A stretch of 26,918 nt of DNA from the IMG/VR virus record IMGVR_UViG_3300021961_008129, positions 1-26,918 of that record, one strand, 5' to 3'. The DNA is from a virus. A program made the position numbers and the translations under genes. Below, piece by piece: positions 18,802-20,299 of the stretch. The notes beneath the pieces are model-generated. The model worked only from the letters and a program-made list of their open reading frames with translations, searched no databases and was not told where the DNA came from. Within the stretch, counting starts at the first letter, position 1. The number at the start of each line of letters is the position of its first letter.

Positions 18802-19473
18802 ATGACCTTAGATCTTCATAACTTTTTTAAGTATTATGATGATAAGAACGCCGACCATGTAGCGGCAGTTCAGTGGTTGGAGGATAATCTTCCTGCAGAG
18901 TTTATGGATGACTCTGAAACAGAATGGGTTGGTATTTTCAGAACCAAACCACCTACACCTGCAGTTCTAGATGTTCCCTATTTCAATCAAGTAGACAACT
19001 ACAGAGATGCACATAGAACTTGCAACTCTTCATCTTGTGCTATGTGCTTGGCATTCCTCAAGCCAGGAAGTATCAAAGGCGATGATGAATATGTCAAAAA
19101 AGTATTTGCGATTGGTGATACAACCGACCACGCAGTTCAGACAAAAGTTCTTGCTGGGTATGGTGTAAAGTCACACTTCAGTTACAACCTATCGTTTGCT
19201 GATATTGACAAGAGCCTTGATAGAGGCAAACCAGTTGTGATTGGTATTCTTCATAGAGGATCTTTAACAAATCCAACTGGAGGACACATGTGTGTAGTTA
19301 TTGGTAAGACTCCTGACGGTAAGGGGTATTATGTAAATGATCCTTATGGATCATTGAATGATAATTATAGTGGTCCTGTTACCAATGGTAAAAAAACTAT
19401 CTATACCAAAGCGGTTCTTAAGCACCGTTGGTGTCCAGGAGGTAATGATGGGTGGGGAAGGATCTTCGACTAA
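18802..19473 (+). CDS. C39-like cysteine peptidase with N-terminal LHNFF module
   Basis: A 223-residue protein. Residues 5-47 (LHNFFKYYDD...QWLEDNLP...WVGIFR) form a module repeated in the gene at 19581. Residues 55-220 are a papain-like Peptidase_C39_2 domain: VPYFNQ at 58-63 gives the oxyanion Gln, catalytic Cys79 in CNSSSCAMCLAF, His162 in GGHMCVVIG and Asp180 in VNDPYG. Such phage enzymes cleave peptide links, often in cell wall or as virion-associated proteases. No signal peptide. The ATG at 18802 has no good ribosome site, unlike the next two genes. Its end overlaps a 48-codon ORF. Role in entry or lysis is inferred from the neighbouring lysozyme and the shared module. Confidence 0.82.
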   Translation: MTLDLHNFFKYYDDKNADHVAAVQWLEDNLPAEFMDDSETEWVGIFRTKPPTPAVLDVPYFNQVDNYRDAHRTCNSSSCAMCLAFLKPGSIKGDDEYVKKVFAIGDTTDHAVQTKVLAGYGVKSHFSYNLSFADIDKSLDRGKPVVIGILHRGSLTNPTGGHMCVVIGKTPDGKGYYVNDPYGSLNDNYSGPVTNGKKTIYTKAVLKHRWCPGGNDGWGRIFD

Positions 19474-19594
19474 TTTCAAACGTAAGATATTGCAGTTAGT
19501 AAAAAAATTAACTGACGAAGGTAGACACAAAGAAGCATCAGAACTTTTTAAAATTTATTTTCCAGATATAGGAGGACCAGATGGCAAGAATTGA
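19448..19594 (+). CDS. Small helical protein of 48 residues
   Basis: A short ORF starting in the end of the peptidase gene (26-base overlap) and running 14 bases into the next gene. The ATG at 19448 is 5 bases after a strong AGGAGG ribosome site (19437-19442), which argues for real translation. The product (NFKRKILQLVKKLTDEGRHKEASELFKIYF and a GGPDGKN tail) is predicted to be two amphipathic, Lys-rich helices without membrane span. No family recognised. A second possibility is that it is only spacing sequence that keeps the next gene coupled. Confidence 0.6.
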   Translation: MGGEGSSTNFKRKILQLVKKLTDEGRHKEASELFKIYFPDIGGPDGKN

Positions 19595-19799
19595 TTTGCA
19601 CAACTTTTTTAATTATTATGATGAGAAAAACCCCAACCATGTGAAGGCAGTTCAGTGGTTAGAAGATAATCTCCCAGTTAAATTCCTTGAGGACAATGTT
19701 GACTGGGCTGAGATCTATAGGGGTAAGAAAGGTGGATCAGCACCTGCCGCCTCTGCAGGTGATGTGTGCCCTCACTGTGGCAAACCTCTGGGAAAGTAG
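19581..19799 (+). CDS. LHNFF-module protein with CPHC knuckle (zero-frame product before frameshift)
   Basis: A 72-residue protein. Residues 6-47 repeat the LHNFF module of the C39-like peptidase with roughly 60 percent identity. A Ala/Ser/Pro linker (GGSAPAASAGD, 51-61) leads to CPHCGKPLGK (63-72), half of a zinc ribbon or knuckle. The TAG stop at 19797-19799 comes directly after a GGGAAAG slippery heptamer whose codon phase (G GGA AAG) suits a -1 shift; the shifted frame continues without a stop into the lysozyme, giving a predicted 239-residue fusion. AGGAGG lies upstream of the ATG. Without shifting, this would be a free module and knuckle of unknown role. Confidence 0.8.
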   Translation: MARIDLHNFFNYYDEKNPNHVKAVQWLEDNLPVKFLEDNVDWAEIYRGKKGGSAPAASAGDVCPHCGKPLGK

Positions 19800-19828
19800 A
19801 GAGCGGCAGTGGTGCTCCTGCTGCCGCT
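19790..19828 (+). promoter_or_regulatory. Predicted programmed -1 ribosomal frameshift signal
   Basis: Slippery heptamer GGGAAAG (19790-19796) read in zero frame as G-GGA-AAG, followed at once by the zero-frame stop TAG. Five bases after the heptamer a perfect GC-rich hairpin begins: AGCGGCAG (19802-19809) pairs with CTGCCGCT (19821-19828), 11-base loop. Heptamer, phase, spacer and stem all fit the standard -1 frameshift layout; GGGAAAG is also the heptamer used by phage lambda G/GT. Confidence 0.75.
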
Positions 19829-20299
19829 TCTGGTGAAGTCCCTATGATGGGTATTAAGCTCATCAAAGAGTTTGAAGGATGCCACTTGAGTGCCTATCCA
19901 GATCCTCTGTCAGGTAACCTACCAATCACTATTGGTTGGGGTTCTACCCGTAAGAAGGATGGATCGCCATTCAAGATGGGTGATAAGATTACCCAGGCAG
20001 AGGCAGACGAACTACTGATTAGTCAGTGCAAGAATCAATTTATTCCAGCACTTGCAAAAATCCCACATTGGAATGAAATGTCAGATGGAAAAAGAGGCGC
20101 TTTGCTCAGCTTTGCTTATAATCTTGGTGCCGGTTTTTACGGTGGTGATAACTTTAATACTATTACTAAACGCCTGAAGAATAAGGAGTGGGACCAAGTG
20201 CCCGATGCACTTTATCTCTACAGAAATCCTGGTTCTAATGTTGAGGCAGGACTTGCTCGTAGAAGAAAAGCAGAAGGAGAAGCCTGGAAGAAGGGTTAA
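19796..20299 (+). CDS. T4-type lysozyme (GH24), -1 frame part of predicted fusion
   Basis: Muramidase that cleaves the N-acetylmuramic acid to N-acetylglucosamine bonds of peptidoglycan. Counting from the ATG at 19844, the catalytic residues are E11 (IKEFEG), D20 (SAYPDP) and T29 (ITIGWGST), nearly the T4 lysozyme numbering (E11, D20, T26). LLSFAYNLGAG and LARRRKAEGEAWKKG are the family's middle and C-terminal blocks. The coordinates given start at the first codon after the frameshift site; 167 residues would be added to the 72 of the upstream frame, joined by a second linker (SGSGAPAAASGE). Alternatively a free 151-residue lysozyme could start at 19844 using GGTGA at 19832-19836. Both forms may be made. 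Confidence 0.92.
   Translation, partial: VESGSGAPAAASGEVPMMGIKLIKEFEGCHLSAYPDPLSGNLPITIGWGSTRKKDGSPFKMGDKITQAEADELLISQCKNQFIPALAKIPHWNEMSDGKRGALLSFAYNLGAGFYGGDNFNTITKRLKNKEWDQVPDALYLYRNPGSNVEAGLARRRKAEGEAWKKG

Follow-up and report, generated by a model that had tools for sequence, protein, structure and literature searches.

In dnaX of Escherichia coli, the slippery heptamer A_AAA_AAG is followed one codon later by a stop codon in the −1 frame, and slippage gives the short product; in a few bacteria this arrangement is reported to be reversed: the site is immediately followed by the zero-frame stop, and frameshifting makes the long product (PMC5009743). A_AAA_AAG, C_CCA_AAG and G_GGA_AAG have all been reported as shift-prone in E. 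coli, the latter two highly so (PMC5009743). Early −1 frameshifting in E. coli copA frees the N-terminal domain, 70 aa long, as a small protein, and in the G/GT tail chaperones of lambda, a dsDNA tailed phage, a slippery heptamer near the end of the zero frame leads to an extended fusion (PMC5009743). In tailed phages, most known frameshifting concerns such tail chaperones, and our literature search on frameshifted endolysins, cyanophage frameshifting and these heptamers yielded no published cyanophage or GH24 case. A lactococcal phage lysin in two overlapping genes enters this comparison through the PRFect paper, which cites it as frameshift-containing (PMC10885494, reference 35). Two products also arise from one gene in the two-polypeptide endolysins (Lys170, LysIME-EF1, CTP1L and LysP7951), which yield a full-length enzyme and a free non-catalytic domain, several of them assembling with a defined stoichiometry at ratios such as 1:3 or 1:5 (PMC9430671).

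A lysozyme gene in two reading frames

We analyzed a virus record of 26,918 bases (the window), in which the gene under study lies within positions 19570–20299; the nearest cultured relatives of the region are the Synechococcus phages DSL-LC03 and DSL-LC02 of the family Kyanoviridae. With a probability of about 0.9, we read this gene as one coding unit with two predicted readings, an in-frame protein of 72 residues and, after a −1 slip, a lysozyme fusion of 239 residues. Its features and those of its surroundings are as follows:

18802–19473, plus strand: upstream partner gene, LHNFF domain followed by a C39-like peptidase
19570–19575, plus strand: AGGAGG ribosome-binding site of the LHNFF frame, from the sequence
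19581–19799, plus strand: zero-frame ORF of 72 aa, comprising the LHNFF domain, a linker, CPHCGKPLGK and the stop TAG
19581–19721, plus strand: LHNFF domain, 47 codons, from PHROG matches; a second copy opens the neighboring C39 peptidase
19767–19796, plus strand: CPHCGKPLGK knuckle including the slip codons; CPHCGK.LGK is invariant in 16 aligned homologues
19790–19796, plus strand: G_GGA_AAG slippery heptamer, in phase with the zero frame
19797–19799, plus strand: zero-frame stop TAG directly 3' of the heptamer (in homologues TAA in 14/21 and TAG in 7/21 clusters)
19796–20299, plus strand: −1 frame of 167 aa, linker and GH24 lysozyme; predicted fusion product of 239 aa
19802–19828, plus strand: 11-bp stem-loop, likely frameshift stimulator (19802–19812 with 19818–19828)
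19844–19846, plus strand: internal ATG, candidate start of a free lysozyme by a rival route; lacking in L003 and L094
19865–20275, plus strand: GH24 lysozyme domain, PF00959 match

The first-pass annotation of this DNA had proposed a programmed −1 frameshift joining an LHNFF/knuckle domain to a lysozyme, and its account of the two frames was borne out: the ORF at 19581–19799 ends CTG GGA AAG TAG, with the heptamer in exact phase and the stop at once after it, and the −1 frame from 19796 runs for 167 aa without a stop into a complete GH24 lysozyme (Pfam PF00959, E=3e-23, residues 24–160). The PF00959 match is full-length, FEG, YPDP and ITIGWG align with the solved lysozyme 9kbq, and the catalytic Glu, Asp and Thr motifs of GH24 phage lysozymes are present. 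The predicted tryptic peptide VESGSGAPAAASGEVPMMGIK begins exactly at the shift, and a start at GTG 19766 would yield the same peptide. Transcriptional slippage was considered and rejected, the A run being 6 and the runs within GGGAAAG 3, both below the 9 of the runs that have been described in bacteria (PMC5009743).

The LHNFF domain is common to the lysozyme gene and the adjoining C39 peptidase, and phage S-CREM1 encodes GH24–LHNFF–C39 as a single chain (L202:2980-4161), which suggests that lysozyme and C39 peptidase act together. No GGGAAAG, AAAAAAG or CCCAAAG stands out as a slip site in 191 distinct genes of the C39 partner. A second frameshift after the C39 gene was also rejected: in the window the conserved peptide at this place is preceded by an AGGAGG and starts with an ATG of its own, and it is therefore an ordinary overlapping small ORF. 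This ORF (19445–19594, plus strand, 49 aa, MMGGEGSSTNFKRKILQLVKKLTDEGRHKEASELFKIYFPDIGG...) has its AGGAGG at 19437–19442, within the terminal part of C39, and runs into the LHNFF start, which its stop overlaps. It is conserved in many relatives and missing where the lysozyme gene directly succeeds C39; in DSL-LC02 its place between C39 and the lysozyme gene is taken by a 127-aa ORF annotated as a hypothetical protein (L201, 2395–2778).

Conservation of the heptamer and the downstream stem

Relatives were retrieved from viral contigs using each half of the gene separately, which gave 134 distinct genes: 104 with a single frame, 29 with the lysozyme in the −1 frame and the heptamer, and one (L052) shifted without the heptamer. 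This last gene, on a 236-kb contig, is of the single-frame type, with a break in its linker, no heptamer at the break and no knuckle, and is probably a real or sequencing indel.

All 29 frameshift genes, which fall into 21 clusters at 90% nucleotide identity, carry CPHCGK(P/S)LGK ending in (C/T)TG GGA AAG and followed directly by TAA or TAG, with GH24 in the −1 frame. The codons NNG, GGA and AAG at the site are invariant in 21/21 clusters; elsewhere in the same genes GGA makes up 24% of Gly, NNG 19% of Leu and AAG 44% of Lys codons, and the Gly and Pro codons within the knuckle itself vary across the clusters. An unbiased scan of viral contigs for the knuckle, in which every synonymous codon was permitted and the heptamer was not required, returned 38 contigs, 37 of them with this lysozyme gene, and 37/37 had the heptamer and a TAR stop; the remaining contig (L197) holds an unrelated gene. 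Within the window, in-phase GGGAAAG, AAAAAAG and CCCAAAG occur in none of the other 7,739 codons of the larger ORFs. Site, phase, conservation and the conserved domain of the −1 frame are matters of direct observation. The idea of a mobile frameshift cassette present in other genes was dropped, the knuckle–heptamer module occurring among viral contigs only in this lysozyme gene; the module was not found in genome_contigs. No Shine-Dalgarno-like stimulator is evident within 30 nt 5' of the heptamer, and an Rfam search gave no match above chance.

The frame break could instead be a sequencing error, an assembly error or an inactivating indel in an ordinary LHNFF–lysozyme gene, as might be supposed from the close relatives, cultured DSL-LC03 and DSL-LC02 among them, that have one continuous frame, and from L052, whose shifted frame, lacking a heptamer where it breaks, exemplifies a true indel. 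Against this, 29 distinct genes, drawn from many metagenomes, share an identical break, heptamer and stop amid synonymous variation of the usual kind, which excludes an indel for practical purposes; the invariant knuckle at the end of the zero frame is also missing from most single-frame genes. We consider such an origin vanishingly improbable. The homologue alignment that the first-pass annotation had called for, with heptamer, phase and stem retained in 29 genes while the surrounding codons change, supports reading the break as a programmed −1 frameshift signal.

The hairpin had initially been described as 8 bp long and 5 bases past the heptamer; the spacing is correct, and the stem is in fact 11 bp, formed by AGCGGCAGTGG (19802–19812) and CTGCTGCCGCT (19818–19828) around a loop of 5. 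The 45 nt after the heptamer have a minimum free energy of −21.3 kcal/mol (z −3.1), with 0/200 shuffles as stable. A stem is present in 29/29 frameshift genes with its onset 5–6 bases after the heptamer, so that each has a downstream structure in the range of about 5–8 nt, the observed stability exceeding that of synonymous recodings (mean z −2.5). MAFFT offsets the two stem types by one base when they are aligned jointly, and compensatory changes were therefore counted within types only. Within each type 100% of cells pair, with three double compensatory changes in all, counts drawn from a small number of distinct stems (shuffles 74/500 and 53/500). Stable folding is common in Ala-rich linkers in any case: the median is −20.7 kcal/mol at the frameshift site and −17.2 kcal/mol for the best 45-nt window in single-frame genes, and for the latter the anchored stem is only modestly better than recoding (mean z −1.06). 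We take the stem as supporting evidence, weaker than the heptamer, on which our argument rests.

Single-frame relatives and the apparent exchange of linkers

The 104 single-frame genes, including those of DSL-LC03 and DSL-LC02, read LHNFF–linker–lysozyme continuously. In a heptamer count intended as a control, in-phase A_AAA_AAG surfaced in 96/104 of them, always at codons 48–50 (GKK; AKK in one), where the linker starts. Among 50 single-frame clusters the site reads GGA AAA AAG 48 times, GCA AAA AAG once and GCA AAG GGG once, whereas only 2/100 of the Lys-Lys pairs elsewhere in these genes are written AAA AAG. A −1 stop follows after one codon in 38/49 clusters (32.5% expected from synonymous recoding) and within 15 codons in 48/49 (47.6% expected). 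The dnaX-type arrangement, A_AAA_AAG with a near −1 stop, is thus kept beyond codon usage; the heptamer itself stands in 49/50 clusters. A scan for WAEIYRGKK with all synonymous codons permitted gave, among the matches listed, which are a sample, GGA AAA AAG in 67/67 single-frame genes (counting L427, which reads KLVKEF) and GGC AAG AAA in both of two frameshift genes; A_AAA_AAG is found in 0/29 frameshift genes.

A third arrangement occurs in four AKG genes without the GKK site (L212, L213, L214 and L250), in which the knuckle, CPKCGKG, lies in frame and holds an in-phase C_CCA_AAG, and the −1 frame reaches a stop two codons later. Linker cysteines are present in eight single-frame relatives, and seven of these have a C-x2-C knuckle; a knuckle within a continuous chain is therefore a real architecture, as had been surmised for the CPHC knuckle between two linkers of one chain. 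Altogether, one of the three heptamers is present in 129/133 genes and none in 4/133.

Single-frame homologues without the heptamer had been foreseen in the first-pass annotation as a sign that the break is an indel. Such genes do exist, 104 of them, and lack this knuckle–heptamer cassette, but the conclusion does not follow, as almost every one of them has a different slip site, with the polarity reversed. In these genes, normal reading would give the long enzyme, and slippage at A_AAA_AAG or C_CCA_AAG in the linker, with its near −1 stop, would release a short LHNFF protein. The outcome would be the opposite of that at G_GGA_AAG, and 129/133 genes could make both a short LHNFF protein and an LHNFF–lysozyme. 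Almost the entire gene family seems designed so that one gene yields two proteins, one short and one long, and the two-product output appears to be common to this lysozyme family with either polarity.

The invariant GGA AAA AAG might instead serve pausing, an RNA element or an internal ribosome-binding site, with frameshifting confined to the knuckle genes. A downstream stem weakly better than expected in the single-frame genes would suit such a role. This explanation is unlikely in our view, given that the near −1 stop is enriched beyond recoding and that the site is absent exactly from the genes with the other heptamer; A_AAA_AAG is moreover the dnaX site, where the stop also lies one codon on (PMC5009743).

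The single-frame genes also bear on whether internal initiation, at ATG 19844 or at GTG 19766 in the −1 frame, could be the sole source of the lysozyme, which would then be a free enzyme, with the heptamer incidental. The ATG noted in the first-pass annotation, with GGTGA upstream, is indeed there, most frameshift genes have ATG ATG with GGTGA upstream, and the window has the GTG. Yet single-frame genes contain the Met-Met pair as protein sequence, so it needs no explanation as a start; the ATG is missing in L003 and L094, and the start at −30 is cut off in most genes by a −1-frame stop at −12. Internal initiation accounts for neither the invariant GGGAAAG-TAR nor the mirror-image A_AAA_AAG, and we judge it highly improbable as the sole route. 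The start at ATG 19844 may serve as an extra route alongside frameshifting.

Placed on a tree built from the two domains, the frameshift type requires about seven changes, at least six of them on well-supported branches, with the bootstrap not fully settled. The frameshift gene L094 and the single-frame gene L251 are 99.3% identical in lysozyme DNA and 86% in LHNFF DNA and differ in their linkers, a comparison in which chimeric assembly is possible, both lying on short contigs from one sample. At the position of the single-frame A_AAA_AAG site, L094 has GGA GAA AAG. The pattern suggests that linkers and polarity have been exchanged by recombination.

Predicted products and comparison with known systems

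Ribosomes that stay in frame on the window gene would stop at TAG 19797 and give the 72-residue LHNFF–knuckle protein. A fraction would slip back one base at G_GGA_AAG, from GGA to GGG and from AAG to AAA, probably aided by the stem starting 5 bases on, and would continue in the −1 frame to the 239-residue LHNFF–knuckle–linker–lysozyme. That such slippage takes place in the cell, and its rate, we infer from the sequence. As for the products, we tentatively favor a short LHNFF protein that partners the full-length enzyme, perhaps also the LHNFF–C39 peptidase, in a defined ratio, by analogy with the two-polypeptide endolysins. The CPHC motif alone hints that the knuckle might bind zinc, and zinc-ribbon matches to it are weak and below the cut-off. 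The pLDDT is 60 for the LHNFF structure model and 46 for that of a homologue with a single-frame knuckle, values too low for either to be used in a fold search, so a binding role is without structural support. The earlier idea that the two products separate a virion-bound from a lysis form found no support here.

Pure dose control is the main alternative: frameshifting would be real and set only the amount of lysozyme, leaving the short LHNFF protein with no function of its own. Lysis enzymes are commonly limited in dose or time, and a shift toward the enzyme would lower its amount, as would a shift away from it. A ribosome-binding site could set the dose as well, however, and the retention of two products with either polarity, together with the invariant CPHCGK.LGK end, suggests that the short protein matters; we regard dose control as possible and slightly less probable than the partner subunit, which we continue to prefer. 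A bolder and equally doubtful extension would treat the linker as an exchangeable recoding module, swapped by recombination between backbones with its polarity reversed and its output kept, and would have an obligatory free LHNFF protein and LHNFF–lysozyme join each other and LHNFF–C39 in one lysis complex.

If the frameshift reading is true, gene callers will have overlooked a second product throughout this lysozyme family. The single-frame form sits in the annotated cultured phages DSL-LC02 and DSL-LC03 as an ordinary-looking lysozyme gene, which makes the idea testable now.

Among known systems, the window gene resembles lambda G/GT, which uses the GGGAAAG heptamer, in that a heptamer near the zero-frame end would give an extended fusion; it differs in that lambda makes a tail chaperone, whereas here a lysozyme is the part fused on, and nothing separates the stop from the heptamer. 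The small N-terminal protein of copA is like the one predicted for the single-frame lysozymes, although the proteins are unrelated. The lactococcal phage lysin, as cited in the PRFect paper, differs from the window lysozyme in host and gene. In the two-polypeptide endolysins, from phages of Gram-positive hosts, an in-frame internal start frees the C-terminal domain, whereas in the cyanophage lysozyme frameshifting would free the N-terminal one; the window gene, with a short N-terminal product predicted from a stop and a frameshift, is not of the type in which an in-frame internal start yields a free C-terminal cell-wall-binding domain. In dnaX both polarities occur, as they do in the cyanophage lysozyme family. 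We found no literature report of a polarity reversal in a phage lysozyme, and the reversal reported for bacterial dnaX concerns an unrelated gene; here a phage lysozyme has three heptamers, changes polarity within one close family and apparently exchanges linkers. If confirmed, this would be a second family beside dnaX in which selection keeps the product pair and not the direction of the shift.
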